A stretch of DNA of 64,000 bases, taken from Halichondria panicea. Its lineage: Eukaryota; Porifera; Demospongiae; Suberitida; Halichondriidae. The notes below the pieces were generated by a model that ran no database searches, was not told the DNA's origin, and worked only from the letters and a program-made list of their open reading frames with translations. A program made the translations under genes and the position numbers. This document shows positions 1 to 64,000 of this stretch, in pieces. Positions within the stretch are counted from its first letter, which is position 1. Each line of letters opens with the position of its first letter. The DNA lies in NCBI RefSeq assembly GCF_963675165.1, contig NC_087391.1:4142646-4206645 (forward strand). Direction: 5' to 3'.

Positions 1-178
1 GGTATTATGTTCCATCTGGTAACTACAAAATTAGCATAGGTACATGTATCCTTACGATAAAAAGAAAAGCACACATACACAAACTCGGAGGGTAAAACCA
101 CAGATTACCCCTTGTACATGTAGAAAGTGAATAGAAGGACCACAAATACATAACATTTGCTTTACCATATTACCATAC

Positions 179-6100: not shown

Positions 6101-6452
6101 CCGAGGCTAATTTTGAGCTAAGAATAAAATAAATGTACAGTAAGTGCATGCACAATGTACATGTATAATATATCTAGCAAACTACCCCTTCCCCATGGCA
6201 ATTGAAACTAATTACTTTATATTCACTATCAAAAGTGCATGAATTATTATGATTATCGATATATAGATATAATTATTATCTATAGCCGACCGATAATTAT
6301 TTGAACACACATGTATGTACGTACAAATGGAACTAGATTATTATTAATTATTGTCTACCTATACCTCATTCAGTCTATAGTATATCAAACTCACCACTGT
6401 AATCTGACGTATCTGGTTTGACGGCTTTACTAGCGTTCAAATTTTCCGTCAT
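179..6452 (-). CDS. TPR-CHAT protein (TTC28-like), 3' end beyond the window
   Basis: Five exons by hand: 6452-6395, 3965-3792, 3732-2422, 2044-1427, 1186-179. All introns, and the last donor at 178, are phase 1, and the frame stays open for about 1056 residues. The order is a short N-terminus (starts MTENLNASKA), a Ser/Gln/Thr-rich low-complexity linker, about six to eight TPRs (for example GNLYQSLGDNQNAMKQYEE and GNAYLGLNQKDKALFHLEK), then a CHAT domain. CHAT is a caspase/separase-like Cys protease fold; the expected dyad is visible as HLATHGS (His at 395-393) and VLSSCDSGRG (Cys at 248-246). It is paralogous to the TPR-CHAT part of the gene at 56.4-62 kb but has no GTPase in front. After the last donor the paralogue continues with an exon starting at LAG/AQA, so the C-terminus should lie left of base 1. 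The first intron is 2.4 kb and full of repeats. The start is the first in-frame ATG followed by a GTGAGT donor. Substrate and function are unknown. Confidence 0.85.
3966..6394 (-). other. Repeat-filled first intron of the TPR-CHAT gene
   Basis: This 2.4-kb intron shows no coding exon that I can support; the short ORFs in it have no recognisable content. It holds a dispersed repeat (about 4811-4985) with an inverted copy at 38972-39176. It also holds several short repeats carrying the palindrome GCGCATGCGC (near 4771 and 5240) and a related GCGCATGCAC next to CCGAGG near 6090. AT-rich stretches with TATA runs fill 6180-6360. Confidence 0.6.
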
Positions 6453-35184: not shown

Positions 35185-35523
35185 ATTTTTACAGCAAAGG
35201 TCAAGAAACCCATGCAGAACAGGAATGTTAAAAGGCCACGCCAATGCATGAATCTCATTACATGAATGGCCTGATGGCTGATTCTGCATTACTTACGATT
35301 CTGCACCATCTGCATTTGCTGTTATATAATTATGGCCTGATTCTGCATGCATGCATCATCTGTAGTAAACTATTATGCTGTTATTATACTGATTCTACAT
35401 CATCTGCATTAGTATTATGCTTATCGTTATTATATTATTATGATTACTGCTTATCATAACAGCAACTAATTCTACTACTGTGACGTGGTAACGTCTGACA
35501 CTGACAAGTCATCTTGAAACAAC

Positions 35524-38500: not shown

Positions 38501-38845
38501 CGTATAGGCTAGAAGATGGTCATAAAGATTGGGTCTCTGCTTGTGAACTCAAAGGTGAAACAATGCTTACCTGTACTGTAAATATTCTATACCATATGTA
38601 CCTAGGTCTCTCGTAGCACATAAAATGTGTCCGCTAGCTAGTCATCTCGGTAGTGTAACAACTCGGTAATTTGATCTCGCTAACCTGCCATTTCATTGCT
38701 CACTATAGATTACGTATAGCCTGTATCTATTCCTACTGCATACGTACAGATCCTCTAGCCTCAGGACAGCACACGAGATTATTGCCAGCAGATAAAGAAG
38801 GTGAAACTGTGTCAAAGCGTCAGAAGAACAATGTCACTGTACAAG
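35524..38845 (+). CDS. NACHT-like plus Roc/COR-like GTPase protein (two P-loops)
   Basis: Exon 35524 to 38554, open for 1010 codons, then a likely exon 38750-38845 (phase 1 to 1); the 3' end was not found. An 87-nt stretch (35845-35931) has good splice signals (GTAAGT..ACAG) and may be an intron that happens to keep the frame. Domains in order: unknown N-terminus; a NACHT-like segment with Walker A GAPGVGKTTLSRK (about residue 219) followed by CIDWAQGKL and PLREL, but no visible Walker B; a spacer; then a second P-loop GMAGTGKTS (about 338) with the GTPase motifs DSGGQPHFHNL (G3) and GTHKDH (G4); then a COR-like winged-helix region (VPFWWFVLEIVVEKVS.. FHEHHIFHYYP..). Two Cys pairs near the end (ACV..RCTLCKEMTY) could bind metal. 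The start has a stop codon (TGA 35515) just upstream in frame. Likely a STAND/Roco-type signalling switch; partners unknown. Confidence 0.75.
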
Positions 38846-43830: not shown

Positions 43831-44432
43831 AATAATTAATGGTGTTTGTTCATTGACAAGTGTCTACCTCTTGTGTCATATACTCAGTGGTATATAGATT
43901 ATTGATTATTAACCCGAGGCGCGTGGGCAGCCACGGGTTATAGTAGTCGTTTGGTTTGTTTGTTTGTGACAGGTGAATCTACTCACCTGGATGCCACAGC
44001 ACTGCGTTTACAGCATGGATAGCCTTCATACAACAAGTTATTAATTTTAATAGTGGCAGAATTTGATGTTAAACCTTCGTTGTCAAATAAAAACGAGCAA
44101 AAGCTAAGAAGCTTGTGACTGGGTCTGCTTACCTGGATGCTCTAGCACTGCGTTTACAGCATGGGTAGCCTCAACACAACAAGTCAGTACTTGGCAGCTT
44201 TCGGTGTTAAAGCTTCGGTGTCTAATAAAAGCGAGCAAAATGTAGCTTGAACAGAACTTGCACATGCGTTACTTATAACTGAAGTGATCCTGTACCAGGT
44301 CCAGAAACAATGGAACAGGGTCACTAAAGTAGAAAGCTGTATATACCAGGAACAATGGAACAGGGTCACTAAAGTAGAAAGCTTGCTTTAGCTGACTGGG
44401 ATCCATGCAGGACCTGGAGCCATACTTCTCTG

Positions 44433-44435
<3 letters not shown>

Positions 44436-44466
<31 letters not shown>

Positions 44467-46593
44467 AAAGATTTAGCAATTAATTGCAAGGATACACAAA
44501 TAGCTACAAAGCTAGGGTGAAGTGAGTCCTATAACATACGTTTTAATAGTTACAGCATGTGATGTGACTTAAATGAACTTATACTAGTACAGTCTACTAA
44601 AGTAAAGTCCTTGTGGCTAACCAGCCTATTCCATATTGTGATTGCATGCGGAAAAAATGAGAATTTGTAAAAGGATGTTCTACATTGGTAGGGGACCAGA
44701 GTAAAATAGTTAACAGTTCTACTACTGTACGTCATATTTCTCTTGGTTGCTGGGTTGTTTGGGAAGTCAGTTAGATTGTGTAGTATTTTGAAAAGGTGGC
44801 ATAGCACCGCAGCAAGGCGCCTCAGCTGCAGAGAGGGAAGCCTGGTCAAGGTGAGCAATTCTTCACTTTTCAAATTCCATTTCTTCAGACAGACTCTCAT
44901 AGCAAATCTCTGGACTTTTTCTAAATTGTTTATTTCACACTTGTGAAATGGGTTCCATACAGAGGATGCGTATTCCAGATGTGGTCTCACGAACGATGTA
45001 TACAACTTTAACAGTGTTGTTGGAGAAGAATTCCCAGAGAACCTGCGATGTAGTAGACCTATCAACTTCCTTGTTTTATTACAAATCGTATTGATGTGAG
45101 TGTGCCAGCTCAAGTCAGCCGATATGGTAATTCCTAAATACTTGTAGTTAGAAACCTGCTGCAGTACATAACCATTTAGAAGTAGAGTTGGAGCCTTCAA
45201 TGAGCGCGATGTTTTCTTAGAAACGGACATAAACTTACACTTGCCAAGATTAAATTCTAATAATTTAGTGTTCAAAAAATTTGAGACTTTAGAAATGTCC
45301 TTTTGAAGATTCATGTAGTCATTAGTAGATGTGATAACTCTGTATAAGGCCATGTCATCAGCAAACATATTTAGCTTACTGTCTTGAGAAATAACATCTG
45401 TGACTTGGTTTATGTTACGTAATGAACAATAGTGGACCCAAAACCGAACCTTGGGGCACACCTGAGAGAACATGTAAGCTGTCTGAGTTACTGCCATCAA
45501 TACCCACAAACTGTTTCCTCTTCAGTAAGTAGCTATGCACCCAGTTTAGTAAATATTTGTTAAAATTAAGTGACTGTAGATGTTTCAGAAGATTGACATG
45601 GGGGACAGTATCGAATGCCTTTTTGATATCAAAGAAAACTACGCATACTTCATGACCTTGATCCAGGGCTCTACTCCAGTCTTTTATCACCTGTATTAGG
45701 GCTGAGATAGATGAGCGTGATGACATGAAGCCCCACTGCCTTGGAGATATAGGTGCCTGGTCGCACAGGTGTTCCTGACAAAGAGACTTAACGTGTTTCT
45801 CTAAAATTTTGCTTATTGTAGGAAGTATCGAAATTGGTATATAGTTACTAACATGAGCGGGGTTGCCTCCCTTCAGTACAGGAACAACTCTAGCCATCTT
45901 CCAGGCTGCCGGAAAACATCCAGTCGAGATAGAGGAATTGAAAAGAGACGTGAGTGGGGCACTAATACTTGCAGCAGTGCTCTTTAGCATCTTAGCAGCT
46001 ACGCCATCACAACCCATAGATTTTCCAATTACAAGTTTGGTAAGGTCTTTAAATACTTCCTCTTCAGTGCACAGTAACTCTTCAGGACACCCAGAAGGGA
46101 TCATGTTGCCAAAGTGCTCCATAGAGATGTTAGCCTGTAAGGGAGGGCAGTTACGATTGTAACAAGAGTGGAAGAATTTATTAAAAGCTTCAGCTTTGCA
46201 AGTTGCTTGGTCTATAGTTGTGCCACTCTCTTCAAGGGTAGGAATAGAACAAGTTCTCCCATTTAGGGTTTTCACAGTCTTCCAAAATACTTTTTTATCC
46301 TTGGTATTCAATTGGGAGAAAAATTTGTTCTTGCTTTTCCTAATCATTGCCACCACACTATTTCTCTGAACTCTGTATTTCTCCTTATCCCTATGACAGT
46401 TAGACGATTTAGCTCTCTGAAAGTAAGTGTTCCTCCTAGTTATCCCTTTAATAATTTCTCTATTGATCCATGGGGTTTTACTTTTCACCTTGATAGTTCT
46501 ACATGGAATACTGAGTTCCATAATCTGCAGGAATAGTGATTGCCAGGCGAGTACACTGGAGTTAACATCATTAGGATTTAGTTCTTCTTCCCA
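44436..46593 (-). pseudogene. 5'-truncated, frameshifted LINE (CR1/Jockey-like RT)
   Basis: The minus-strand poly(A) is seen as 30 T at 44436-44465. RT fragment 1 (46521-45415) has the SNY-PIS-LPTISKILEKHV block, FFDIKKAFDTVPH and GVPQGSVLGPLLF. Fragment 2 (to 44550) is in another frame and starts with NQVTD, then the catalytic FADD and the thumb region (KYLGITISADLSW; RPHLEYASSVWNP). The frames change at about 45420, by a small indel. The endonuclease domain is missing, so it is 5'-truncated. The first Arg of the usual NYRPIS is Ile here. It lies inside a repeat that is uninterrupted near 54470-54715. Not active as it stands. Confidence 0.85.
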
Positions 46594-46850
46594 GTCTCCA
46601 GGCTTCTTTGCTGTGATCCTAATCCACAGTGCATATATCTATAGTACTACTACCTGTTCTCAAATGTTTCAGCATGCCTCCAGTCTGGTTTAGTTTTATT
46701 GCTCCTGAGTTGCTGTGCAAGTCATGCATGAATGATGATGATAACAACATCACTATATGCACTGCATTATATCAGTCTTCTGGTTTCTTTATAATCATGT
46801 CACCAGCCGAGGGTTTGCACTTTAGTGCTCTAGTTGAACAATTAATGGTG
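46594..46850. repeat. Host repeat interrupted by the LINE (copy 1)
   Basis: From TCTCCAGGCTTCTTTGCTGT to GTTTGCACTTTAGTGCTCTAG it matches 54486-54715 closely. The LINE separates this part from its left part GAGCCATACTTCTCTG (44418-44433). Confidence 0.8.
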
Positions 46851-47270
46851 GCCACTATGTAACGTACTTACAAACACTTTTTAGCATGTTTCATGGTCTG
46901 GTAGGTACAGGGTTATCCCATTATGGAAATACAAGTACAGCGGATAAATTTGACAACATTTTAAGTTTGGCGACTTGAAGAATAATTATATAATTTAATT
47001 GCAGATTGTAAATTTACAATTTTATACTGTTAATGACGTTTACGTATCTATTGTATACAAGCCGTAACATTGTAGACATTGTTTTTATATTTTATATATA
47101 TATAATTTATATTCCCTTACCTTATTTTAGAGATATTTTCCAAAGCATCCAAAATATTTTGTCATTGGTTTGACTTGTTTGTATGTTGTGTCAATGTCTG
47201 GGTGAGTGCTAGCACACAGTAAACCACATGTACTGTCAGTTCATGTGCTCCTGTTCAACCAACCATGTAG
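46851..47270. other. No firm exon seen upstream of the Death/ANK gene
   Basis: AT-rich. A short stretch ending ATGTCTGG/GTGAGT (47193-47206) could be a donor, but the only phase-compatible frame has a stop codon 12 nt upstream of its ATG. The 5' end of the gene is therefore undetermined. Confidence 0.3.
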
Positions 47271-47371
47271 ATATCGAGAACATAGGTGGACAGACTGCTG
47301 CTGATATGGCCAGAGGGTGGGGGTACCATGCCTTGGCTGACTATGTGGAGGGGTTCAGCCTGGACCTAGAG
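47271..47371 (+). CDS. Putative exon, ankyrin-repeat-like, 5' of the Death exon
   Basis: CATGTAG acceptor and GAG/GTGAGT donor enclose one open frame, DIENIGGQTAADMARGWGYH.. (34 aa). It looks like a terminal ankyrin half-repeat (GGQTAADMARGWGYHALADY). It begins in phase 1 but ends in phase 0, whereas the next exon (47778) needs phase 1. A linking exon is therefore missing, or this exon belongs to a different transcript. Confidence 0.4.
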
Positions 47372-47777
47372 GTGAGTTGACCATCAGCTGTTGTACACAG
47401 TAGTCAGTAGGTATCTACTGAGTTGCATGGTCAGTACAGCTAGATCAGTGGTTTCCGTGTGATGCCGTTCATGCACCTTCCATATATTGTTAAATCTCAT
47501 GCAGTTAATTAGTGATCAGTTTCTTTGAAGGTGCATGTTGGGTTGTAAATAGTGTTGGTCACAATGTCTATAACCTCGATCTAGCAACATTTGCATCCAT
47601 AGTTTATATTATTGCCCTCCGGCAGTTTACTTGTACAGTGCAATACCACATGCAGTGTATGACTAGACAATGACAATGCCTCAGGTATGCCTTCTCAAGA
47701 TCAGTACACTCCATAATTATACTACATGATCATGAGCCCCTTTGGCTTTAATACTTCCTTTTCTAACTATTATGTAG

Positions 47778-50700
47778 ATCCTCTGTCCTCGTACCCAACA
47801 CTGGAACAGCTGAGTCAGTTGGAATGTGACCAATGGCTTCAACTTGGTGTTCGCTTGGGATTGGGCAATGACCAACTGGAAACCATAAAGAAGAGCCAAT
47901 ATCCCACAGCAGCAACTCTCCAGGCAGCCAAAATCAAGAATATTGACATGCAGTGGAAGGATATTGTGGAAGCTCTAGTGAGCATTGGAGAGTACAAGTT
48001 GGCAGAGAGTGTGTGCACTCAGCAAGGTCAGTAAATGATTGCTCCTGTTTTATTACTAACATTCTTGTATGGGAAACTACTCCGTACTGCAAGCTTGTGT
48101 AGACTTTTTTCTCTTTTGCTGTAGAGTAAACAACCGATTATCATGTTCGAATACTTGTTCTCGAGGACAGCAGCTCAGAGCACTAAGTGGAGTGACAAGG
48201 CCAAACATTCAACTATTCTAGTTCCAACATAGCCACGATTTTTCGAACTCTCTCTCTCGTATCAACAGAAGGCGCTCTAAAGAGATAGCTACAATGCATG
48301 ACCGTAATTTACAACAAGTAAACTATGTACAGCTCTGGTTTCGAGGTCTGACTGCAAGCCGTTAGACAATAGTGGCCTCTTGAAAAAGTGCAGTAGTGCC
48401 ATCAAAATCCAAACGATTAATACCTTTTCTCCATTTTTTCCTAAGTTGCAGTTTTACGTCATGCTACACTGGAAATTATAAAGAAAAGGTATTAATCGTT
48501 TGGATTTTGATGGCACTACTGCACTTTTTCAAGATGCCTCCATTGTCTAACAGCTCGCAGTCAGACCTCGAAACCAGAGCTGTACATATATACTTTACTA
48601 TATAGTTGTAGATTACGGTTATGCATTGTAGCTAGCTCTTTAGAGTCTTCTGTTGATACGAGAGAGAGAGAGCGAAGATTCGTGGCTATGTTTGAACTAA
48701 ATCTGTTCCAATAGTTGATTGTTTGGCCTTGTCATGACCACTCCGCCGAGGAAGCTTTTTGCTGATCGTGGGTTCGGACTTGAATAGAGCCTTACCTAGT
48801 CTATATACCTATATGTACTATCAGCTTAGTGCTCTGAGCCGCTGTCTTCGAGAACAAGCGTTCGAAAATAGAAAATAGAACGTGTTCGATAATCGTTCGT
48901 TTACTCTATTCGTCTGTATTCACGTCTGCACTGTACAATGCAAGTAAACTTAACAATTGTATGCTGTCTTAATTAATTATGCTAACAATACCAACTGCAG
49001 GGGAAGGTGAGAGTGCTCTGTCAGTGAGTGCATACTATGGCTGGCTGGACTGTGTCAAGCGTCTTGTGGAAACTGTGGGCCTCAATCCAAAAGGTGAAAA
49101 TGGTACCTCAAGAACAAGTTTCATGTTCACTCCTATAGTTAGACTGAGCCCACAATAGTCGCTTATCAACATGATCGAGGCTTATTTTGGATAATATTAT
49201 AGTTATTATGACTAATAACTAACTGGGGGCTCAGACAAACAAAAAGCAAATAAGTAGAGCTTGTCTATAAGAGTGAAAGGAAAAAACAATTTCTTGAGGT
49301 ACTGTTTCGTCACAAATACCGTATATGCTTGATCAGGAGCCGCGGCTACTAATATTTCATTTTGCTGGAAGAGGAGGCTACAATTCGAGAGAGGCCACTG
49401 TTCAAGAGCAGCGTTTATTCAACAACCTTTAGTTTGTCATCAAAAGTTCTTTTCACCTGCATAAACTTGAACTCTGCCATGAGAAAGTCTTTGTGAAGCA
49501 CTAACAAGCTGCTACCTGTAACCAACCAGCAGCTACGTACATATAGCTAGCTGCATGCTAGTATTAATAATTTTTTTGGCTGCCATGTTTACTGTTCACT
49601 GAGGCTACTATTTGAGAGCGGCTACTACATATTGCTAGCAAGGGAGGCTACTATTTGAGTGCGGCTCTTATACAAGCGCGGCCTCTGATCGAGCATATAC
49701 GGTACTCCCCTCCAGGTTCAAGGTGTTAGCAATAACAATGCTGATAGTAACCTAGGAAGGCAATGAATAACATAAGTGATAATCATCACTATAATGTTAT
49801 TCGTTGCAAATTTCAGGTTTCCCAGTATATAATTATACAACCTGACTGTGGTTTTGACGTAGACCTATTATGACTTGAAGTGGAGTTGCGTACTTTTCCT
49901 AATGAAATCACGAGGAACAGCAACTAATGTAACCTGCAAAATTAGTAGTGCCGTATCTCAATTGATGAAATTTACTCCATGCTCTCCCCCTTTGGAAATC
50001 ACAGCCTGTTAGACTAGATGCCTCTTTCAGAACACCATCAAGGATCTTTACTAGTGCAGCCATACATTGTGACAAAGCAGTAACTGTGTTCTTGTCATCT
50101 GCTTCAATCTTGGCTTATTAGTCTCCTGCCAAACTATACTGCACCTGATAGGGGGGTTCCAAACTACGAGCGCGCAGCACGAAATTTTTTGGGGGTTACG
50201 CCCACTTTCGGTCACACGTGACTAGGGAAAATCCCATACTCAGCCAGGGGAAGTCCCATAATAGACTTGCGTAGAGCATAGATAGTAGAGGAAGGGGATT
50301 GGAAACACAGGCAATTAGCACTATTTCACACGAACCGTCCTTGCTACAACCTCAATTATAGCCGCGACCATGGATGCAGCTTAAAGTGCTGAGCTTGCAA
50401 TAAACTTGTTGTGCACTAATATAATGGCAGTTTATGAGCTTAAGCAAGCTTATGATCATGCATAGACAACAATGAACAATCAATAAAAGGTAAAGCATGG
50501 TCTAAACATGAATTATCAATGTTCTTCCAGTGATTTGATTTTCTCAGTCCAAGTTTTTGCCACACATCGACACTGCGGTGACAAAATCAGAGCATGAATA
50601 GTGATTTTCAATATCTAATGGGCAATAATATGGACATTGATCTTTAATACTGCCGAGTCTCTAATATAAACTCAGCTTAGTTATGGAGATGCTACCCCGC

Positions 50701-53700
50701 AAAGATGGCTAGTGGAAATCAACAAATCGGCCAATAACTCAAGAAGTATGATATCCCCACTTCCAATAATAATATAGCTCAAGCAATAAAATACCATCAT
50801 GTACTACTACTGTGATCATTCATTTAATAGATGCAATTTATAAGTCAGTTCCTACCCCACAAATAAAAAGAAGAAGCTAAGTGTTGTAAAATCTTCAAAT
50901 TTTGTGTGCTACCAGAGTGAACATGACTTCTAGCTAGTAATAATGTTTCATTTTATACCTAGCCATGCCTCAAGACAAATTTTAGGGCTATTCATACATT
51001 TACTTACCTAGTATATCCTCTCATTTGCTTGTTTTCAAAAGCTTCTTTTGACCTCAAAACCAGTAAAATCACACCTCAAGGTGTCTATTGGTTGCAACGC
51101 GCACGGCCTCACGTTGCAAGCATAAGCTCACATGATCCCGTTTCCAATCCCCTTCCTCTACTATCTATGCGTAGAGCTAGCTAGCTGCCACGAACAGTCA
51201 ACTAGCTAACCTAGGCTAACCTGAACACTCCTTTGGCAGTTCCTGATCAAAACAACAGGTACAATCATTGAATCAAATTACAATAGCTACAAAACTGATA
51301 AATAGCTAGCTGATAGCTGTAGTAAAGCCACAATAGCTAGACTGAAAGGGGGGATCTGTGGCACCCTGGAATCTCCCCTGGATCCGCCACTGACTGTTGA
51401 GATTTAAGTCTGCCCGAGCAAGAACTGTCACAATAGTTTCTTGTGCAGATATATATATATCGGTAGTCGAGCGTACGTAGGGCCGGCGGTAGTGGCTGCT
51501 TCTGAGAGAATTATCAAATGCCACCTGTAGTTCACGTGATGGAAACACGCAGCTGAACCAAGAATGCTATGAATATCATTACGTTCCCAATACATTTAGG
51601 AAGTCCCACGCCCATCGCAAATCCTCTAGAAAACAGCAAAAAGGGGTGAATCAGATTGACTTTAATTGCTCTGAGATTGAGAGAAGTCTTCTCTTGGTAT
51701 ACCAGCAAAGAGTAGAGTCTAACCTTTAATCTAAAAGTCTATTTGTGTTGAGTTTGACCTTCATAAAGTTCTCATAACTTTGTCATACTTCACTGAAATT
51801 CAAAGTTTCATATACCATTCGATTCCTTGTTAAAAAAAGCGCTTCTATCTATATGATGTAGAGCTGGTAAGCTCCTTAAAAGTTAGCATTTTCCATGTAG
51901 AAGTCCCAGGCATACTTGTCAACCACATAAAGCATAAATGAAGCCATAATTGACCACATAACTTCCGGGGTCGAACTCAACGCAAATATACTTTTAACTA
52001 GCTACTCATTAAAAGTGAACGTGATATTTTAGCTATGCAATGCTCAAACTCTCATATTATCGAGTCAAAATACCCTTGTGCAAGAACTTCGTACAGCAAT
52101 ACTTTTCCCACCCCCCTAACCAAAGATTAACGCTATAATTACTGCAATATTGTTGCTAGTGTGATAGGTTGAACCAATTATGTCCGACTTTACAACAGCG
52201 ATTTTGTAACTGTATTATCTACGTAATCGTATGTTTGTTAAAAGTTTTAACCGAAAGTCAAGAGCACAACATCTCAAAAAAGAAAAACAATACAAATTAG
52301 TGGGTATAGTATAAAGTACTGTATAGTGGAAATTTTAGCCAGTGCAAATTTTCACTATTTGGCTCCAGAGCCCTCAGCAGAAATGTTCGTGGGTTCTAAT
52401 ATTCGCATTTTCAATGCCAGGAAACAGCACCCACCAATAGCTTTGCATTAGAAATACCAGTGCGTGGGTATTTAACTATTTTAATTTTCGCATTTTCTGT
52501 CTATACCCTCGAAAAACTTACCTCACGAAAATTTACGTCGTCAAGGCAGTAATTGCACGTCGTCATTAACGACGTGCAATTACTGCCTTGACGACCAATA
52601 ACGGCCGCGGCAAATTTTTTTACTGAAACTGCTGCTAAAAATGTCCTTAACTGAAACTGCATCACAAACGATTAACAATCAATAGTATGGCTACTCATGC
52701 AATAAGGGATTAATAGCACTCATAACAAGCACTGGCAAGGTTAATAGCACTCGACGTATAGCCATACAATTATTATTTTGTAAGGCATACTTAATAAAGA
52801 GTTATAATTATCTTATTTTGCTATACGCACTATTAGAGGTTTCAAACACTATAATGAACCAAAGCATGTGGTGTATGTACAAGCATGTTGATCCAAATAG
52901 TAAGTGTTTAGCAGTGCTGTTAGGTTGTTGATTGGTCTTCCACAGAGCCCGTCAACAAGGCTGGTGACACCCCACTCTCTCTAGCCTGTGCTAATGGCCA
53001 CTCGGACACTGTCAAGTATCTTGTGAACCAGCATCATTGTGATCCTAAAAGTAAGCATTGGTACATAATTATGTACATCAATTGCTGCATCACTCAATAC
53101 ACTCGTACATGTACAGGTACAGTCAACAAGGCTGGTGACACCCCACTCTCTCTGGCCTGTACTAATGGCCACTTGGACACAGTCAAGTATCTTGTGAACC
53201 AGCATCATTGTGATTCTAAAAGTAAGCATTGGTACATATTTATGGTACATCAATTGCTGCATCACTCAATACACTCGTACATGTACAGGTACAGTCAACA
53301 AGGCTGGTGACACCCCACTCTCTCTGGCCTACAAAAGTGGACACTGGGAAGTGGTCAAGTATCTCGCCATCACTCATCACTGTGATACAAAAAGTAAGTT
53401 TGTTCATGGTTGTCAATGAATGACCTGTTGGTTTTATCACACTATTATTCTATAGAATTGCATATTATTATTGATACTGTAGCTGTAAGTTTGGCTCTAT
53501 TATTGGCAGTTTAAAATGCTGCAGGCATAATTATTATAAGTGCAAATGATGTACTGGGACTGACTACCAAGCTAATTGCATGCCATTGGTAATCTTTAAT
53601 CCATGATTCGCCAATCGCCAAGTTTACCCGCTATAAGTTATAGCCTATAGCATATACTACGGGACAGACAGATTGAGGATTGAGGAAAACGGTTCCCCTT

Positions 53701-56700
53701 TTTACTAGATAAAGTTATTAACCCGAAGCGCGTAGGCGGCCTCGGTTACAGTAGTCTGTCTGTGTGTCTGTGTGTCTGTCGCTCAGTTTGGCTTACCTGG
53801 TGCTTTGGGCATCACAATTTGTACGTAGGGAAACTTAAAACTAAGGCTTAAAATTTGGCAGATTTTGCTAAGAAGTCTTTGTTTCGCAGAAAAGTCGAGC
53901 TAAACCTAAGAAGCTTTTTGCGTACTACTAAACACGGCTATTATTTGGAACATTAATTACCCTAAGACCTCGATTTAAGGCGACCCTCCAAATATGCGAC
54001 ACCCAGGAGCTTCAGCAATATTCTGACCTCTAAAAGTGAGCGACAGCTGCGTTGACAAAAAAAAGTAATGTCGCGCTCTAAATAGAGGTAAATATAGCCA
54101 CTCCCTAGCCTCGATTATAGCCCACTGGAAAGTCAGTGTTTTAAGCGGCCTAAAATCGAGGCAAGTAGACTCTATAAAGTTATCTCCAATTAGATGCGAC
54201 CCTATAAATATGTGACACCTGGGCTTCAATATAATTTTTCAACCTCCAAAAGAAGCAACCTCTGGCTTCGTAATTATTAAAAAGTGTTGCTTTAAATCGA
54301 GATCTTACGGTAGCCCAGCTAGATACGGCTATTATTCGAAACATAAGCCAGTAATTACTGTTTGCTTTGTGTGTTTGTGGAAAAGGGTCGATACAATAGA
54401 AAGCTAGAATTGTGTCTGGTTTGTCTCCACATTAGCTGACTCTGGAATCCTACTCCAGGAGCCATACTTCTCTGCATGAGACTCCAGGCTTCTTTGCTGT
54501 GATCCTAGCTAGTCCACAGTGCATATATCTATCTATGTACCACTAAAACCCTGTTCTCAATGTTTCAGCATGCCTCCAGTCTGGTTCCTGAGTTGCTGTG
54601 CTAGACAGTTAAGTCATACATGATATTCATCACTATATGCACGGTATTATATCACTCTTCTGGTTTCTTTATAATCATGTCACCAGCCGAGGGTTTGCAC
54701 TTTAGTGCTCTAGTTATTATTATTATTTTTTTTTTTTCATGTAATATCAAACAGTACAAATGTACAAAAGCAAAAGATAAGAGGGGGGGGCATACAGTTT
54801 AGCGGATACCATCTGCTGAAGTAGGTAAAGTTTGTTGGCGATGAAGCCACAGGCAGGCATTTCCTCTCCAAAGTGCAATGGCCAGGCGATGAAACAGATG
54901 CTTCTTGGTGGAGGATGTGGAATGTGTCATGGTTACTCTCCGGTCGATGGCATTTCTGATGGCACCTATGATGTTGATTGTTTCTTCACCTAGACCTCCT
55001 AGTGTTTCTGCCACAATGGGAATGAAGTTTACACCTATGGAGCGGCAGGCCTATATGGGTGGTGAGCTTGCGCCTAACTCCAACTTCTAGGGTGTGTCCA
55101 GGGGAGAAGGCAGCTTCATGAATGAGGGTTTGCTGGAGCGGTTAAATTACATGGACGTCCAAGGCAGCGGGTCTTGACAGGGATTCTGGGATTAAACCTT
55201 GGGCCTCTTGGGATGGTTCGAGAGCTGCAGATTGAGCGGCTGAGAAAATGACATCTCTGACCGCATTGTGGTGGGTGATTCTGTCTCCATTTCCGCCACA
55301 GCCAACTTGATGGTCACCATATTCGTCGGCGGAGGTGCGACATGCTGGGCAGAGGTGGGGGGCACTGTGGAGAGGGATGCCGAGCCAATATTTCAAGCAG
55401 CTGTTGAATTCCTTGTTCTGCATGTGGAGGCCAAGCACATCTGCTGGCACCCCGTTCAACCAATCTCCAGCATGGGGTAGAGCAGACGAGTTTGCCAAAG
55501 CACGAGCCCTGGTTGAAGGTGAGAGGTTTTGGTACATGGCTTCATCAATGGCACAGGACAAGTGGCGCTGACGTAGAGGGATGTCTATGTCATCGAGATT
55601 GAGCCATTCAGGGTGGGAAGAAGAGGATGACAGGGCACTCACAGCTTATTCAAGATAGGCGTCCAGATTGGTCGGGCGATTAAGGATACGTTCCAGGGTC
55701 TTGGTGGAGGCAGCTGAGGAGATGAAAGCTGCAGGGGCATGTAAGACAGCACTGCGGAGGTTGAGGCCGCCACGGTTGCTTGGTAGGGAAGTTTTCTGCC
55801 ATTGATTATCAGCAATCACTTGGTAGAGAGTATAATTATATTGAAAATTTTCAAGAGCCCTCAGAAAAAAATTGTTGTGGGTTGTGTTTAATGCCAGAAA
55901 ACCACACCCACCAAGACCTTTGCATGTGAAATACCAAGAGTATATGATATAGAGAGAGTATCAATGATATAGAGAGAGTATCAAACGTAGGCATACTGTA
56001 CATCAGATGTATGCGGAAAGTAACGTGACTTCCTGTATCTGTTACAAGCTTGGAATTTGCACACTGACCAATCCAAGTGTGGGTGATGTAATCTATCAAG
56101 TAGATTACATCACTTGGATGGGTTGATAGATTACATCACCCACACTTAGATTGGTCAGTGTGCAAATTCCAAGCCTACGTTTGATACTCTCTCTCTATCA
56201 TAATACTCTTGGAAATACCAATGCATAGGAGTTTCTCCCAGTTTTAATATTCGCGTTCACTACTCTGCCCTAAAAAAGTGCACTTTACGAAAATTTCCCG
56301 CTCTACATGCATGGTGTGTATTTTTTGATACAGTTGAACAATTGAATTCCTTCTGTACAGGGGTGGAGGAAGAGCACCTTTATCAAGAAGCCATCAAGAA
56401 CGATCGAACAGTGTCTCTTCGCTACCTCAAGCTCCTTCTTCTTGGTCCTGGCCAAGTTGGAAAGTCAACCTTTCTCCGTAGACTTCTTGGTGAAATGAAA
56501 TGGGACATTGACTCAGATCCAAAACCTCATTGTAGCACAGAAATGGCTCGCTTACAGCAAGTATGTATTAAATATACTCCTATTGCTGCCGCTGTTACTA
56601 CGGATGGTTGGCACACTATTGAAGAATTACACAATCAAGTTGCCGTATTAACCTCAATGTTGGTGAATGAACAAGTGCATGTTAAAGAAGTTGGTAATAC

Positions 56701-59700
56701 CAAGTTAACAGAATCCCAGAGAATAAACAATCCTGAAGAAGAGTCTCACCAACCTCAAGTACAATGCAATAGTCATTCAAGTGCTTTGCCACTAACCAGT
56801 ACTCAGGAACGTCTGGGAGCTACAACCTCAACTTACAATCTAAAATTGGATTATAAATATCAACAAGATACATTGTCTCCAAACAACATAGCAAATGTTC
56901 TCGATAAATATAAAGAGCTAAGACACAATTTGAAGCTAAAACCACAAATTTTGATCGAGACCCTGCTTAATATAGTGGATGTAGGTGGGCAACTAGCATT
57001 TTTGGATATGTTTCCATCATTAACAATTGGTCCTGCTATGTACTTGGTGTTCATGAAGCTCCTAGACGGATTAGGAACTGAACACCCTGTAACGTTTGTC
57101 GATACAGATCCAATTGTGTGCAAAGAGTACACTTACACATCAGAAGATATCATTTTCACTGCTCTTTCAAGCATTGCATGTTTTGGAAATTCGGATGCTG
57201 AGGTAGAAGAATACATAGCGAGTGACAACAAATCAAACAAACTTTCAAGTTCAATAGCGTTATTGTTAGAAACATTTAAAGATGAATACTTGGAAGCAAC
57301 GAAAGAAGTCCAGTTAGTGGTTGATCGAAACGAAACAGAACTCAAAACCCGATTAAAGGACACTGGTCTTCATAATATAGAATACTATGACCGAGAAAAA
57401 GGTCATATCTTTTTGAACAAAAATGGAGAGATTGCTACTTATCGAAAATGTCTTAAAGAATTTATACCATTGTTTAAGAAACTGATCATAAATATCTCGA
57501 TTACTAACAATTCTCCTTTGCTTATGGGAAACTACAATATAATTACATTACCAGACCTCAGTGTAAGTCATCTAGTAACTGAAACAAGAAGTAAAGAAGA
57601 AACAAAGAGCAAAAAGAAGAAAAGTGGATTTGTACCTCCAAGAAGGCAGATATTTCTATTGTTGAAGCGTCGTCGTAAACGAAAGATAAGAGGCAAACAA
57701 AGTGCTTTGAAAGCACGGCCATTAAGTGATTCTGAAGATGATAAAAACTTGCCGGATGTAGTTCAAGAAAAAAGCCTTAAGACATTAAAATCAAGAATGC
57801 AAATAGTAACAATATCCAGGTATACTGATCCCCCAAAGTTGAAAGGTCATGTTTCTGCTAAACTTGCATATTTAGAGTCTGATTCAAACAGTCAAGAAGA
57901 AGATATAGGCAACCGAACTGACATTTTTGCTACTGATCAATGCTCCTCTGTTAAAATGGATCTCGTACACAATTGCCAATATTCATATTCAGAAGAACCA
58001 GTTGCACAAACAAGGCAAGCCCTGTTATCCATGAAAGGGACAGCTATTTTCAGAGTGGGGGCACCTTCAACTGAACTAGAATTTAAGCGTCTGCGGGTCT
58101 CAGTCAATGTTCAAGCATTCTATTTGTTGATCAAGCGTGAGAAATCAGCTATAGTCACATACATTTCTACTGAAAACAAACAAGAACTGTATTGCTTTGA
58201 AAATCGAGGATTGGGTAGGAAAAAGAAACCAGTTTACAGAGTCACATCTGAGGCTGAAACATTGTACGATTTCTCCAAGTCTGCAATAGTTCATGGATCA
58301 TTTTCAAAACGAAACTTAGTGGTTATCAAGGAATTGGAAACACCAAAAAGTAACTTTGTTGGTATTCCATCACATGAGAAACTTAGTCAGTCCAATATTG
58401 GATTAGTAGATCATATATCTACCTCTGAAACATCATCACAACAACTCTATAGCTCAGAACGTACTGACTCCATGAGACTTCCTACATTGGCTGCTGCAAA
58501 TAGCTTAAGCACGAGTTCACCACCTGTAGCAGCAGAATCTCCAGTTAAAAGTAAAGGTGTAAGAGGAAGGGTACAAGTAGATGGTGAACAAAAGGCCTCA
58601 TTGAATGCTTCTATTCCACGAGCAAGTACTATAAGGACAAGTGAGAGGACAAGGGAGAGAAACTCTCCTCGCGAAAACGACAGTAGCCTACAGCGAAGTA
58701 TCCCTACACGAAGATCACCTGATTGGATTGCCATAGCAACTAAACTTCTTCATGTTCCCGACTATCAAAAAATGATACAGATTCTCAATGGTGTCACACC
58801 AGCTCAGGAAGATCTTGTAGCTCATAAATTCATCAAGGGAATTGCTTACTTCAAAGTTGGCAAGTTACGACAAGCAATGAGTGACTTACACGAATGTGAG
58901 AAATTTGCTTTAGAATCCATTGAAAACGAAAGATGTGCACACTCTCAAAGCCAATTGGATAGAGGAGTATTTTCAATGCAACCATTTGGATCACAGGCTT
59001 CCCCCCAGGCATCAAGTTTGCAATATTTGCAACAATCATCCAAAAAAGGAGACGTTGCTGTTTGTAATGTATACATGGGAGATCTGCACTATACTTCAGG
59101 CTCCTATCTTGAGGCATCGAAATGTTATCAACGAGCGGCCGATTTGTATGATAGAGAATGTGTAGCAAGACTGTTCAGGATGGTTCCCCCCACCATATCA
59201 ACAATTCACTCGAAATGTGGCAGCTGCTTACGCAATTTGTCCAAATCAATGGAGGCCATTCAAGAGTACAGAAATGCTATCGAGACAGCCATTAGAGACA
59301 AAGACCGTCTTGCTGCTCACACTAGCCTTGGAAACCTCCAACAGACTCTAGGTCAGAACAAAGAAGCACTGGTAGAGTATGAACATGCCCTTGATCTAGC
59401 AGAGAAACTCAATGAACACATGTCAGTTGGTTGGACTCATGGGAATATTGGAAATGCCTTCCTCGGACTGAATGAAAAAGACAAAGCACTATTTCATCTT
59501 CAAAAAGCCCTTGATATCACTATTAAGTACGAACCTAAACCAGATTCTATAGGAAGAGCATATAATAACCTAGGCACTGCCTACCAGTCAATGGGTGACC
59601 TTGACAAAGCTGAAGAACACTATGACCTTGCTTTAAGTCAGGCTATCTACGGCAATGACCCAGCTGGACAATCCAGGGTTTATGGAAATATCGGAAACAT

Positions 59701-62700
59701 ATATATTGTCAGGAAACGTTTTGAAAAAGCTATCCCTCACTACACCGAAGTGCTTCGCCTCTCCAAAGATGAGGCTACGATAAGCACCGCTCACCACAAC
59801 AGAGGATGTGCACTATATGAGTGGGCAGAGAGTAAAATGCTTGCTCTAGAACAATCTTTACAGAAAAATTCCTCAAGTAACGAGCCAACATTTCGATTTC
59901 ACGGATCCCAAACTACACTTCCCCAAAAGCATAGTCCTCGTATTGTGATCGATAGCATTGCCAAACTCTTCAGAGATGGAATGTCAGATTTGCAAAAGGT
60001 TGCTGAAACTCACGAAGCAAAACTTGACCACATCAAAGGATCAGCCAAAGGACTTTCACTTTCAGTCTCCCTCACAGAGTCAAATTCTCGCACTTTTCAT
60101 CGCTTACAGGACTGCATGGTCGCCATAGGCAACTGGAGGGAGGCTCTTCTCATTGCTGAGCAAAGCAGAGCTCGTACGCTCGGCGAAATAATGCTTGCAC
60201 GGAAAGAAAGTCAACTTGAAAAGGCTCTTACCTCACCACTAAACCTGGAGCATGTGTACTCCATTGTGAGCTCACAAAAGTCTCCTGTTCTCTACCTCAC
60301 CCACACTGGAGCTAGTCTGTTTGGCTGGGTGCTCGTCCCAGCTGAAGACAGTGACAGCATTTCAATCGAGATGTTTGAAATTCCCATATCAGATGACCAG
60401 TTCAATGGAAAGAGCTTCGATTATCACATCAGATATGGCCTTACAGAGGTCTTGGTGGAGCAGAGCTATGAGATGTATCGCAGCATCGATTATGATGAAG
60501 AAACTACTGCTCCTGTTGCTCAACTCTTCAAGGTCATTGGTAAACCCTTTCAAATGACTCTTGACCGACTTCTTCCAGGAAACAAGAAAGCAAAAATGCA
60601 AAAGATTGTTTTGATTACTGATACTTACACCAGTCTATTGCCATTTACTTGCATGTACGATCCAGACAGTGAAACCTTTCTTGGTGATCATTATTATTTT
60701 GAAACCATGCAATCTTTGTTGACAATGGGTATAATGAATCAGCTCCCAGAACCAATGGTTGAATTACCAGCAGATCCACAAAGTATGTGCATTGTGGGAA
60801 ATCCCATCATTCCCAAATTTTACCTTAATGGTGAAGTATGGTCCCTGGGGAAACTCCCTTATGCAAGACGAGAGGCTCAGTGGGTGGGGCATATCCTGAA
60901 CACTCCACCTATTCTGGACGAGCAAGCGACCAAAAGTGCTGTCGTAATGCGATTCATGAGAGCCAAAGTGATTCACATAGCAACCCACGGCAGCTCAGTC
61001 TCGGGTTTCCTAGCATTTGCCTCACTCACCTCTACCAGACAAGGGGAGGGGGTTGACTCCAGTGGAGTACTGCTGCACCCGGAGGAGGTGGAGAAGCTCT
61101 CCATCAGTCCAGCTCTTGTCGTTCTCTCCAGCTGTGACTCCTCAAGAGGTACCGTGAAGGCGGACGGTGTGCAAGGGATGGCAAGAGCATTTTTGTTGGC
61201 AGGTATGTATATACTATGATGTACTTATGGTATAAGTATAATACGTAAACCATAATTATATGTATGCTAGAAGAGTAGGTATATGTAATTGAATACATAA
61301 AGAGGAGTATCTAATTCCCACGCACATTCCATTCTACATCTTGGACTAAATCCCTGTCACTAACACTTGTATGTATAAACTGTTAGCCATGAATAAAATT
61401 AAATGTGGGCTGGAGGTACAAACCACATGTGTGTGCGCTGATATCATTTTTAACCACGACACCTACGCACCACTTAAGATGAGGTCTGATAGTGACGTGG
61501 TATGACATACTCGTACCGTAACCTGGTTTACACTACAACTGCTACAGTTGGATACTCTTCTTTATGTACTCCTGGTATATGTAATTGAGTACAATAAAGG
61601 CTGCTACTAAATTAAGTTGTTTTTCTGCAGGTGCACAAGCTGTGCTCACCGCTCTGTGGAGGGTGCCTGACGAATCTGCAGCTGTATTCATGCGTTTCTT
61701 TTACCGGTTCCTTGAAAATGGGTTTGAGAGCTCCCTCTCACTTCAGAAGGCAATCCTCAGTTTGAGATGCTTCTCCAAGTACTCACAGTACATACATTGG
61801 TCCGGTTACCAGCTAACAGGGAGATCCATTCGTTTGGATATGAAGCCGTCTCCAGTGACGACTATATTAGAGAGTACCCTGAGGCCAAGCTCTCCGTTTC
61901 CTCGGCTCATGCTAGTCAAGAAGCTGGAGAGTGTGTTGGTGGATAATCCAAGACTACCCACTGATATTCAGGTTCGTAATTGCCAATCACTCTCAGGCTA
62001 ATTACTTCAGTGGTTCATGAGCCAGATCTCACCCTAGTGTACTGAACAAACTTGCATGTGTGGTGTATACTATATAAGTATTAATTGTGACGGATAAAAC
62101 AACTGTTTGGACAGCAATGTTACAACTTTTTAGTCACTGTTTGCTCAATACGAAATAATTATACTTCAAAAATTAATTATGAATATTGGTTGAATGTAAC
62201 CAGATTCTTCATGGATCTCCTGGAGTAAAGCCATCTGAAATTGCCATTGACTTCATTCACTCTTGCCACGCTAAATTTGCAGCTGGCATTTTCTGGATCA
62301 GCTGTCGCACACCAGACATCATTGACGCCAGTCTGAAAAGCATTGAGAAAGTGAGTGAATCGACAATCACTGTGTTACCACACCCAATTTCAAGCTGTAA
62401 AGTCACTGTATGAAGTGGTGGTATAAAAAGAAAGAGGCTTAATTACATGTTGTGACTGATAGACAAGCATCACTAATATGATGCCGCTGAATAGGATAAT
62501 AATCGTAATAGGATAACAGAGACAGATTGCTTACTAATTCTTGTAAGTTCGTATACAGTTCACGATACATCTGTTAAGGACATACGTTGATAAGTACAGG
62601 GAATTTGAAGATCGAAGTGACTTACAAAGTGTTTGTGAAGTGACGTGTTTTAATATAATTATTTTGATGATGAAGTAGGTAGGTCTAGGTTAATATGTTG

Positions 62701-64000
62701 TGTAAAGCGCAGAGATTCCAAAGCCTTACTACGTGACTGAAATAGAAGTGACAGGTGGTATTGTAGGCAGGATTAAATGTTTAGGGGGGGGGCTTTACGC
62801 ACGGTAGCGCGCCGCAAATTTTCCCGCTTTGTTGACTTCACCGTTATATCACAGTATTACAGTCTATAGATAGAGTCTACTTTCTACTTAATGGTTACAG
62901 GTTGCATGCAGGTATATATAGCGTTAATAAATGTATTGCATGCAGACAATTGACAAGCCTCTGAACAAGCTGCGACTTAGTGACACACAGCAAGCATTGG
63001 TGGTCCTGGACAATACAATTGAACTGCCAAGCTCGGGAAAACTGATCAGCTTCCTAAAGCACACAAACGTTCACATCATCATTCTGTCAAAGTCAGCAGA
63101 TCCCCTCGACTTTTTCGTAAAAGAAGTTGATAAAGCCTTGATCAGAGGTTGCAGTATACACGAAGTGAAAACACTCTCAACAATTGACTCCACCCAGCGA
63201 ATCGTGTACGAAATCTCCAAGCAGTACTATCTAAAAGCAAACAACAATGATCAAGCAATCTTTGAGAAGTTGGCTGAGTTTACATCCGGCTCACCCCTAA
63301 TTGTTGATATAGCCGCACAAGTTCTGCTCAAGTATGTGCAAGAGAATTCTGACGAACCTTCTGAAGGTCTAAACCAATTTGCCGATTCCATTCAGCTTTC
63401 AAAATCTCGGAAAGTTGTCCATAAATCTCCTCCACTGGCAAGTTTTCTTCAAGGAGTTGAAGATACATGTTTTCAAGTGAGGGAAATTTCAGATGCATTC
63501 ACACACCTTGTTTCAAACGTCGCCAGTGTCTCGCCGAATCACACAGATGTGTGGGAGTCAGAGAGTAAGTATGACTCTTGGGACTCGATCGGAGCCTTGA
63601 TCCAACGTTGCGTATCCACTCCAGGAGAAATGTTGCTGCTTCAAGCCCTGTCCATTTTTGGTTGTATACCAATTCCAATTCCTTTGGTCACTACCATGTC
63701 CTCCCTGATAGCTCAGTCATCAGGTCACTCACACTTGGGTGGAATCTTGCATGAGCGACTAATGGAGGCAAAGTTGATATTAAGGTATCCCCAGCCAGTT
63801 GTTCTTCATTCTACTTACACTAAAGGTGACAAAGCCAGTGAAGAGCCACTTTTCTTATACCTTCCTCAGCACTTGGCTAGTCAGCTGTGGCTATGTAATG
63901 ACATCGATCAAGTAATGGCTGTAACAGTTGCATACAAAGCATTGCAAAAGGTTATCGACGAAAATTCATCAAAAAATCCAGAGCTCTTACATTTTTATCT
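47778..64000 (+). CDS. Death-ankyrin-GTPase-TPR-CHAT-NB-ARC-like giant gene (partial)
   Basis: Exons: 47778-48026 (Death-like: CDQWLQLGVRLGL.., WKDIVEALVSIGEYKLAESV), 49001-49093 and three near-copies 52946-53050, 53117-53221, 53289-53393 (ankyrin repeats, one per exon, all phase 1), 56361-61202 (one 4.8-kb exon), 61631-61971, 62204-62350, 62946 to beyond 64000. The large exon holds a GTPase with G1 GPGQVGKST and G3 DVGGQ (Roc/G-alpha-like; G4 not clear), a basic and Ser-rich linker, a set of TPRs, and the CHAT domain with HIATHGS (His 60986) and VLSSCDSSRG (Cys 61133). Later exons finish CHAT and add an NTPase: GSPGVKPSE (damaged Walker A), LVVLDN (Walker B-like), IIILSKSAD and SGSPLIVDIA (NB-ARC GxP-like), then helical winged-helix-like sequence. 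The frame is open through the right edge. Likely a receptor or death effector; function inferred, no ligand known. Confidence 0.8.
48124..48907. mobile_element. Foldback element between Death and first ankyrin exon
   Basis: The left arm (48124-48437) and right arm (about 48481-48907) are inverted copies. Ends are AGAGTAAACAACCGATTATC and its near complement GATAATCGTTCGTTTACTCT. The right arm has about 90 extra bases. The centre holds TAAGTTGCAGTTTTACGTCA. No ORF. Confidence 0.8.
49094..50268. other. First part of the ankyrin-gene intron: MITE remnants
   Basis: It holds a stretch with short inverted ends (TACCGTATATGCTTGATCAGGAGCCGC near 49319 and GATCGAGCATATACGGTA near 49687), about 385 bp, with GAGGCTAC-TTTGAGAGCGGC repeats inside, then a diverged copy (49750-49905) of the 43545 MITE. 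No exon seen. Confidence 0.6.
50269..51177. mobile_element. MULE-like MITE with 9-bp target duplication
   Basis: The target duplication GCGTAGAGC is at 50269-50277 and 51169-51177. The element 50278-51168 has perfect 29-bp inverted ends (ATAGATAGTAGAGGAAGGGG.. and complement). A 9-bp duplication is the hallmark of Mutator-like elements. The 890-bp interior has no ORF. Confidence 0.85.
51178..52317. other. Intron sequence, no exon seen
   Basis: AT-rich. A stretch near 51340-51390 (GGGGGGATCTGTGGCACCCTGG, GGATCCGCCACTGACTG) looks like a worn repeat end. No coding signal found. Confidence 0.35.
52318..52640. mobile_element. Degenerate TACCGTATAG-type MITE with inserted hairpin
   Basis: Its left part (GTACTGTATAGTGGAAATTTT; GAGCCCTCAGCAGAAATGTTC; CACCCACCAATAG) matches the subfamily at 34976-35184. 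A perfect hairpin, 52537-52595, replaces the expected right end: stem 27 bp (GTCGTCAAGGCAGTAATTGC.. and complement), loop CATTA. Confidence 0.75.
53051..53393 (+). repeat. Tandem duplication of an intron-plus-ankyrin-exon unit
   Basis: Intron-exon units 53051-53221 and 53222-53393 (171 and 172 bp) are near-identical including the introns (GTAAGCATTGGTACATA.. TACATGTACAG). Exons 52946-53050 and 53117-53221 differ at only a few bases. Confidence 0.9.
53394..54415. other. Intron before the GTPase exon, part 1: old repeats
   Basis: It holds a degenerate copy (53716-53810) of the CACGGGTTATAGTAG repeat and a pair of related blocks (about 53960-54010 and 54180-54245) with GCGACCCT..AAATATG-GACACC. 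No exon found. Confidence 0.45.
54416..54715. repeat. Uninterrupted copy of the repeat hit by the LINE
   Basis: It contains GAGCCATACTTCTCTGCATGAGACTCCAGGC.., equivalent to the sequences on both sides of the LINE at 44436-46593, and runs on to GTTTGCACTTTAGTGCTCTAG. It serves as the empty site. Confidence 0.8.
54721..55815 (-). pseudogene. 3' fragment of a retroelement with CCHC/endonuclease-like tail
   Basis: Minus-strand A-tail (12 T at 54726-54737). The protein reads LPSNRGGLNLRSAVLHAPAAF (55800 region), a stop codon near 55648, then a frame with CPACRTSADEYGDHQVGCGG and HHNAVRDVIF, then RPAALDVHVI before another stop. The Cys-Cys-His-Cys cluster followed by HNA and RP-D motifs resembles the C-terminal zinc knuckle and restriction-like endonuclease of some retroelements. 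A third piece (55014-54799) is in another frame. The RT core is absent. Confidence 0.6.
55826..56308. mobile_element. TACCGTATAG-subfamily MITE split by a nested foldback
   Basis: The outer halves (TTGAAAATTTTCAAGAGCCCTC.., CACACCCACCAAGACC; and GGAGTTTCTCCCAG.., ACGAAAATTTCCCGCTCTAC) match the 34976-35184 subfamily. Between them sits a foldback (about 55937-56214), with arms near 56045-56096 and 56123-56174 (CTTGGAATTTGCACACTGAC..) and outer GATATAGAGAGAGTATCAA repeats, the left one duplicated. Confidence 0.7.
61203..61630. repeat. Intron with a repeat shared with 43395-43490
   Basis: The 428-bp intron of the giant gene contains ATTCCCACGC.., GTCACTAACAC and AAACTGTTAGCCAT-AATAAAAT..AATGTGGGCTGG, also present at about 43413-43490. 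The splice sites are G/GTATGT and CTGCAG/GT. Confidence 0.6.
62351..62945. other. Intron of the giant gene, no repeat recognised
   Basis: 595-bp intron between GAAA/GTGAGT and TGCATGCAG/ACA. AT-rich, with a G run near 62785-62793 and a CGCGCCGC patch near 62808. Nothing coding. Confidence 0.5.

Follow-up and report, generated by a model that had tools for sequence, protein, structure and literature searches.

The gene at the right-hand end of the window, i.e., the whole 64,000-nucleotide stretch of Halichondria panicea DNA analysed here (C15:4142646-4206645), probably consists of a GTPase, a linker, TPRs, a caspase-like CHAT protease, and a degenerate NB-ARC/winged-helix-like module; the Death and ankyrin exons upstream are probably cargo delivered by a Helitron-like element. 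The best-supported predicted protein is a GTPase-TPR-CHAT-pseudo-NB-ARC chain. The first-pass annotation had joined all of these modules in a single gene at 47778-64000. Its chain holds from the GTPase to the NB-ARC-like module, which are connected by one exon and by splicing as in RefSeq protein P0003, but not for the Death and ankyrin part, which lies in an insertion that is absent from a sister copy (copy B) and is collinear with a place on contig C5. The proposed interval also missed a frameshifted ankyrin exon (47271-47371), an open reading frame at 35518-38613, and the gene end at 64133. The genome searched is 131 Mb in size.

The following features make up the gene proper:

56361-61202, plus strand: GTPase-TPR-CHAT single exon of 4.8 kb, AG/GT borders
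56444-56470, plus strand: GTPase P-loop GPGQVGKST, intact
56978-56992, plus strand: GTPase DxGGQ motif, intact
about 59225-59824, plus strand: TPRs inside exon 56361-61202, separated from the GTPase by the linker
from about 60512, plus strand: first part of CHAT, inside exon 56361-61202
60986-60988 and 61133-61135, plus strand: CHAT His codon (HIATHG) and Cys codon (LSSCDS), both intact
61631-61971, plus strand: second CHAT exon, found with Pfam; its splicing is seen in P0003 (copy C)
62204-62350, plus strand: exon with the degenerate Walker A position HGSPGVKPSE, NB-ARC-like module
62946-64000, plus strand: last exon, CED-4/Apaf-1-like, running past the window to a stop codon at 64131-64133

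The GTPase, the TPRs, and most of CHAT are located in one open exon (stop-to-stop frame 56204-61219, 1671 aa) and therefore share a reading frame whatever the introns. Pfam CHAT matches this exon with E 2.2e-25 (90.1 bits; cut-off 24) and the exon at 61631-61971 with E 3.2e-11 (43.7 bits; same cut-off), reaching E 3.6e-42 in the spliced P0003, and TPR_12 matches upstream of CHAT with E 7e-30. The CHAT and TPR matches are far beyond chance, and the modules are present where the first-pass annotation had placed them, with the His and Cys of CHAT intact as it had stated. Genome-wide, CHAT matches are found at six loci (10 pieces). P0003 (LOC135348378), the RefSeq model of copy C, splices the CHAT exon to the second CHAT exon, the P-loop exon, and the last exon; matching borders are present in the window, and the intron that splits CHAT is in phase 1. 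That the GTPase, TPRs, CHAT, and C-terminal module form one gene and chain is well supported by these predicted joins. The first ATG of the window exon is at 56495, i.e., 3' of the P-loop, and the in-frame ATG of copy B and of RefSeq protein P0001 is absent, so an intact GTPase needs some upstream exon.

The C-terminal module had been labelled a STAND NTPase. A GK[ST] motif at the Walker A position is absent in all 10 gene copies read (six homologs, of which two are identical here, plus the window, B, A, and C, the latter being P0003), and the position reads xPGx[KN]PSE in nine of them and VHGLKPSE in copy A. Pfam NB-ARC gave no match in the two window exons scanned apart (E up to 1) or in the spliced P0003, P0054, and P0108 (E up to 0.5). 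With Walker A lost in every copy read, the label NTPase is unsupported. The six best Foldseek matches of a last-exon model are CED-4 chains (E < 1e-3); as the model is of low confidence (pLDDT 47), these count as support only. The last exon has a Walker-B-like LVVLD, a GSPL motif, and a winged-helix-like end. Judged from the model, the module may be a degenerate form resembling CED-4/Apaf-1.

Sister copies and relatives indicate which parts of the chain are constrained. Copy B, also on C15, keeps the counterpart of exon 56361-61202 with 97.6% protein identity, P0001 on another contig is 95% identical to this exon, and copy C has a TPR-CHAT with a different N-terminus. By the Nei-Gojobori method, three pairs give a dN/dS of 0.04-0.09 for TPR-CHAT, which indicates strong purifying selection, and of 0.18-0.29 for the last exon. 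A pattern search of whole proteins found the His motif in 120/120 and the Cys motif in 116/120 of the homologs listed. The structure model of one TPR-CHAT homolog, P0008, has a mean pLDDT of 65.7. For the GTPase, dN/dS is 1.25 between the window and B, 0.70 (window) and 0.91 (B) against its relative P0158, 0.79 in one other pair of relatives, and 0.11 and 0.27 in two distant pairs. Values of 0.70-1.25 suggest weak constraint and leave the function of the GTPase within the chain in doubt. Yet all 14 indels in three overlapping pairwise comparisons are multiples of three, and there are no stops where 3.2 would be expected from 60 random substitutions.

P0158 (RefSeq LOC135348600, on C15) has Ig domains and a COR-A match (E 6.8e-7, under the Pfam cut-off), and its GTPase is 87% identical to that of the window. 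The window exon looks like a fusion of two C15 gene types with a junction near 57.47-57.55 kb: a sponge TPR-CHAT gene may have received its GTPase from a relative of the Ig-GTPase-COR-like P0158, the two being fused within one exon. Between the window and B, dS over 56361-61202 is 0.01-0.02 in GTPase and linker and 0.09 in TPR-CHAT, and this gap suggests gene conversion among copies.

Several further members of these families were observed. A fourth, more diverged TPR-CHAT-pseudo-NB-ARC copy lies on the minus strand at window 1-3175 and continues into locus L017; its CHAT exons are 51 and 58% identical, with His and Cys intact. Genome-wide, the GTPase family gave at least 105 matches from the 100 candidates scored out of 189; many of them lie in open frames several hundred aa long, which amounts to a large expansion. 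One relative of the window GTPase, P0243 (RefSeq LOC135339913), carries PF00531, PF00656, and PF13676, which we take to be Death, caspase, and TIR. In proteins from other sources, ankyrin, a different GTPase type, and TPR-CHAT occur together, with Roc in P0024 and PF01926/PF04548 in P0028, P0029, P0031, and P0035; these predicted layouts hint at repeated GTPase-CHAT fusion.

In front of the gene, the following features belong to the insertion:

43901-43909: 9-bp duplication ATTGATTAT, left copy
43910-54714, plus strand: Helitron-like unit composed of element X (start TAACCCGAGGCGCG), a captured C5-like segment, and the terminator of element X'
44436-46592, minus strand: LINE nested in X, with dispersed copies (the longest 96-98% identical) and RT-like ORFs (named by eye)
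46836-53717, plus strand: C5-like segment, exons and introns, from 47200 on collinear with C5:7026503-7032846
47271-47371, plus strand: additional ankyrin exon upstream of Death, 101 nt, frameshifted
47778-48026, plus strand: Death exon, 249 nt, phase 1-1, AG/GT borders
49001-49093, plus strand: ankyrin exon 1, phase 1-1
52946-53050, plus strand: ankyrin exon 2, phase 1-1
53117-53221, plus strand: ankyrin exon 3, phase 1-1
53289-53393, plus strand: ankyrin exon 4, phase 1-1
53718-54714, plus strand: element X', with the 3' hairpin terminator GCACTTTAGTGC followed by TCTAG, the same as in X
54715-55800, minus strand: LINE with its (ATT)n tail to the left and a right end common to four dispersed copies
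55801-55809: 9-bp duplication ATTGATTAT, right copy

Compared with copy B, the window has 11,891 extra bases (43910-55800) flanked by ATTGATTAT; copy B has the same flanks, a single ATTGATTAT, and nothing between, which makes it an exact empty site. The cargo corresponds, introns included, to one place on C5: 47200-48900 to C5:7026503-7028228 (89% DNA identity), 48900-50347 to C5:7028228-7029679 (97%), 50574-52587 to C5:7029683-7031688 (93%), 52600-53225 to C5:7031682-7032301 (92%), and 53120-53900 to C5:7032024-7032846 (88%), and the search piece 53700-55900 matches C5:7032635-7033729 (86%). About 230 bases (50348-50573) are without a match at the collinear place. Other C5 places are similar piecewise, e.g., C5:6708218-6709960 with 93% across the whole of 47200-48900, and 46834-47400 matches C5:7002426-7003006 with 94%. 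Judging from these alignments, a mobile element seems to have brought the Death and ankyrin exons here as cargo from another part of the genome. Within the cargo lies a dispersed repeat about 890 bases long (50277-51169), with about 86-93% identity to copies on many contigs.

The captured exons belong to a known gene family of the sponge. The H. panicea RefSeq proteins P0123, P0159 (DAPK1-like by name), and P0168 have the order ANK, Death, ANK, Roc (precomputed Pfam for P0159 and P0168, own scan for P0123), and C5 carries genes of this type. The window Death exon scanned alone reaches E 0.0023 and 18.5 bits, below the Pfam cut-off of 22.6, and its relative P0123 reaches 1.4e-8 and 35.2 bits, above it. 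A genome search with the Death exon gave 53 matches. Besides its own, 32 of them show at least 80% identity across 55 or more of the 83 residues, with 26 on C5, three on C14, two on C6, one on C8, and none on C15. It measures 249 nt in four of seven other related loci, namely those whose borders the pattern search found. The ankyrin exon at 47271-47371 lacks one base compared with all six other copies covering the position (a seventh copy falls short of it). No start, ankyrin cap, or Roc part of the family was found in the window, and the block was for this reason rejected as a complete separate gene.

The ends of the insertion can be assigned to elements. X starts at 43910, from exactly where 28 of 65 other matches run through a 521-base query, and ends at 46835 with the hairpin GCACTTTAGTGC and TCTAG; 29 of 39 other scored copies stop at 46835 or the next base, and the rest at most 20 bases further (40 of 1144 candidates were scored for this count). 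The junction between X and the cargo was found once among the 40 scored of these 1144 candidates, and none of the 39 other copies spans it. At two C5 places (L073 and L076), the left cargo junction occurs without X, and X' stands at the same relative right-hand place on C5. All five solo X copies have a T before, a TT after, and no target duplication; terminal duplications flank none of the five. The 5' end of X reads TAACCC, which departs from canonical Helitron1 (5' TC, AT target), and the helentron-type features, namely, a 3' hairpin, no target duplication, and a TT target, were found with five solo copies. The unit between the Helitron-like ends is consistent with read-through gene capture. 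For a bat Helitron, terminator bypass and capture of downstream DNA have been demonstrated experimentally (PMC4778049), and helentrons are described as inserting at TT without duplication (PMC5148889).

In the proposed route, X would first have inserted into an intron within an ANK-Death-ANK gene akin to the C5 genes. Passing over its own terminator and ending at the following one, that of X', it would then have carried the stretch into a LINE tail in front of the CHAT gene. No donor copy in which X precedes Death came up in the genome searches (40 of 1144 X candidates scored), so this route is inferred. Most simply, the 9-bp duplication belongs to the insertion of the LINE at 54715-55800, of which the C8 copy examined has the same tail and end. 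The simplest order of events is the LINE with its 9-bp duplication, then the X unit into a TT of its tail, and then the second LINE into X. That all 11.9 kb arrived in one retrotransposition was rejected, as there is no tail at 43910 and the (ATT)n tail lies at 54715.

What precedes the GTPase exon in the mature transcript may also be explained in other ways. An open reading frame of 1032 aa on the plus strand at 35518-38613 contains a NACHT P-loop piece (Pfam NACHT E 2.8e-10) followed by a GTPase/COR-like module, with 84.7% identity between window 36313-38553 and residues 2-740 of P0158. There is perhaps one chance in a few that this frame is the natural upstream part of the gene, giving a NACHT/GTPase1-GTPase2-TPR-CHAT-NB-ARC-like protein from which the insertion is removed as an intron. 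P0158, encoded on the same contig, joins the GTPase1 module to the same GTPase2 in one protein, and the residue preceding its VEEEHL is R, which is what splicing in phase 1 at 56361 would yield. However, the Ig and helical parts between the modules of P0158 have no match at E < 0.5 in the 154 kb searched, the GTPase1 module is partly missing in copy B, and the intron would be about 17.5 kb.

Somewhat less probable is the layout proposed by the first-pass annotation, in which the Helitron-like insertion has been exonised and a single sponge protein has the order Death-ANK-GTPase-TPR-CHAT-NB-ARC-like. The cargo has kept its orientation and phase, so exonisation is possible. The Death exon, the four ankyrin exons, and the GTPase-TPR-CHAT exon can be joined in phase 1 across AG/GT borders without a stop (with the first exon begun at 47735, in the same frame as 47778), and phase 1 continues through the CHAT intron, as had been claimed. 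The five exons free of stops lie on the same strand with intact acceptor and donor sites, and the lack of B's ATG in the window GTPase exon calls for an upstream exon, a role that Death/ANK could serve. Chimeric transcripts from captured fragments are known (PMC4778049). However, the phases are no argument for a single transcript: both source families use phase 1 themselves, as the junction residue of P0158 and the Death-family exons show, and the shared phase was rejected as proof. The insertion is also absent from copy B, and the cargo is truncated, with its first exon frameshifted and its Roc half missing.

Protein and neighbourhood searches bear on the same question. No RefSeq model joining Death/ANK to CHAT was found in 90% clusters (1105-3517 aa, 120 of 1585 listed; 1523-4846 aa, 9 of 9 listed); RefSeq seemingly lacks the window copy's own protein in these lengths, which makes its silence weak evidence. 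Precomputed Pfam Death occurs in none of the 120 TPR-CHAT relatives among the matches listed (120 of 423), of which 32 have ankyrin and at least five a GTPase, the latter being a lower bound because Pfam misses the window-type GTPase in P0001. In the 154 kb holding copies A, B, and C, no Death counterpart was found elsewhere at E 1e-4, and no ankyrin exons were among the listed matches. Splicing of Death/ANK to CHAT in a fused, putative transcript is possible but unlikely, and it is equally unlikely that a recent Helitron-like delivery of sense, phase-matched Death/ANK exons now lets the sponge make a chimeric cell-death protein. Lastly, an old insertion that was precisely lost from copy B is very improbable, since, even with a single sister copy with these flanks read, the B site has one ATTGATTAT and no footprint and the cargo is still 86-97% identical to one C5 place, introns included.

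For the preferred GTPase-TPR-CHAT-pseudo-NB-ARC chain, a mode of action can be proposed. Once the TPRs engage a ligand or partner, a change in conformation would bring the CHAT His and Cys into line by analogy with Craspase, and the aligned CHAT would cut a protein target. Because its ATP-binding loop is lost, the C-terminal pseudo-NB-ARC may be a platform for docking or oligomerisation and not a switch driven by ATP, and the GTPase may add a switch, though it is weakly constrained.

TPR-CHAT proteins as such are already known, and what is new here is this arrangement together with the insertion. The open-licence literature searched yielded no paper on a TPR-CHAT of a sponge combined with a GTPase or a CED-4-like module, and the word CHAT is absent from the main text of a Dysidea NLR paper (PMC12909245). 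The insertion would be an animal case of the proposed domain shuffling by terminator bypass that can be read base by base, with a collinear source place, two terminators, a target, and an empty site. If the chimeric protein is made, this would be exon shuffling of immune genes in which the empty site, the source family, and the terminators can still be read. A caspase-like CHAT protease and a CED-4-like module without a normal ATP loop in one chain would give an early-branching animal an unusual apoptosome-like design, with a testable dyad and a testable ATP question.

Compared with Helitron/helentron capture (PMC4778049, PMC5148889), the window unit shares the 3' hairpin, the CTAG, the lack of duplication, the TT target, and the read-through to the next terminator. 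It differs in its 5' end, TAACCC instead of TC, and in the LINEs nested in and beside it, its class being taken from termini and target. The H. panicea ANK-Death-ANK-Roc genes (P0123, P0159, and P0168) appear to be the source family of the Death/ANK block, from which the block differs in having no start, ankyrin cap, or Roc part.

Craspase TPR-CHAT (bacterial Csx29) has the same TPR-CHAT order and His/Cys dyad, and its target binding is reported to move H585/C627 from about 7 to 3 angstrom (PMC9729208); the window gene has an extra GTPase and a C-terminal module, and the relation is by domain only. A PDB sequence search with the CHAT part (profile of 12 homologs) gave only TPR chains among the best 60 of 151 matches. 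Animal TPR-CHAT genes of the TTC28 type likewise have TPRs followed by one CHAT, and gene duplication is a further common feature, as in corals, for which 276 and 304 genes are reported, with one to two in most non-anthozoan metazoans (PMC12314368, PMC9145168). In contrast, the window gene has a GTPase in front, a CED-4-like module behind, and an intact His/Cys pair. In H. panicea itself, locus L018 (C8:1512500-1522499) has a plus-strand ORF (1771-6435) with a long TPR-CHAT, called TTC28-like from its long TPR array and CHAT layout rather than from a tree. At the Cys place it has VVVSGAHKSD, against VVLSSCDS in the C15 copies, and the L018 member may therefore be a dead protease, with the C15 family intact. 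With the NB-ARC of CED-4/Apaf-1, the last exon shares the order of structural elements in a low-confidence model. CED-4 and Apaf-1 recruit a protease instead of being fused to one, whereas the window module has no Walker A and is fused behind its protease.
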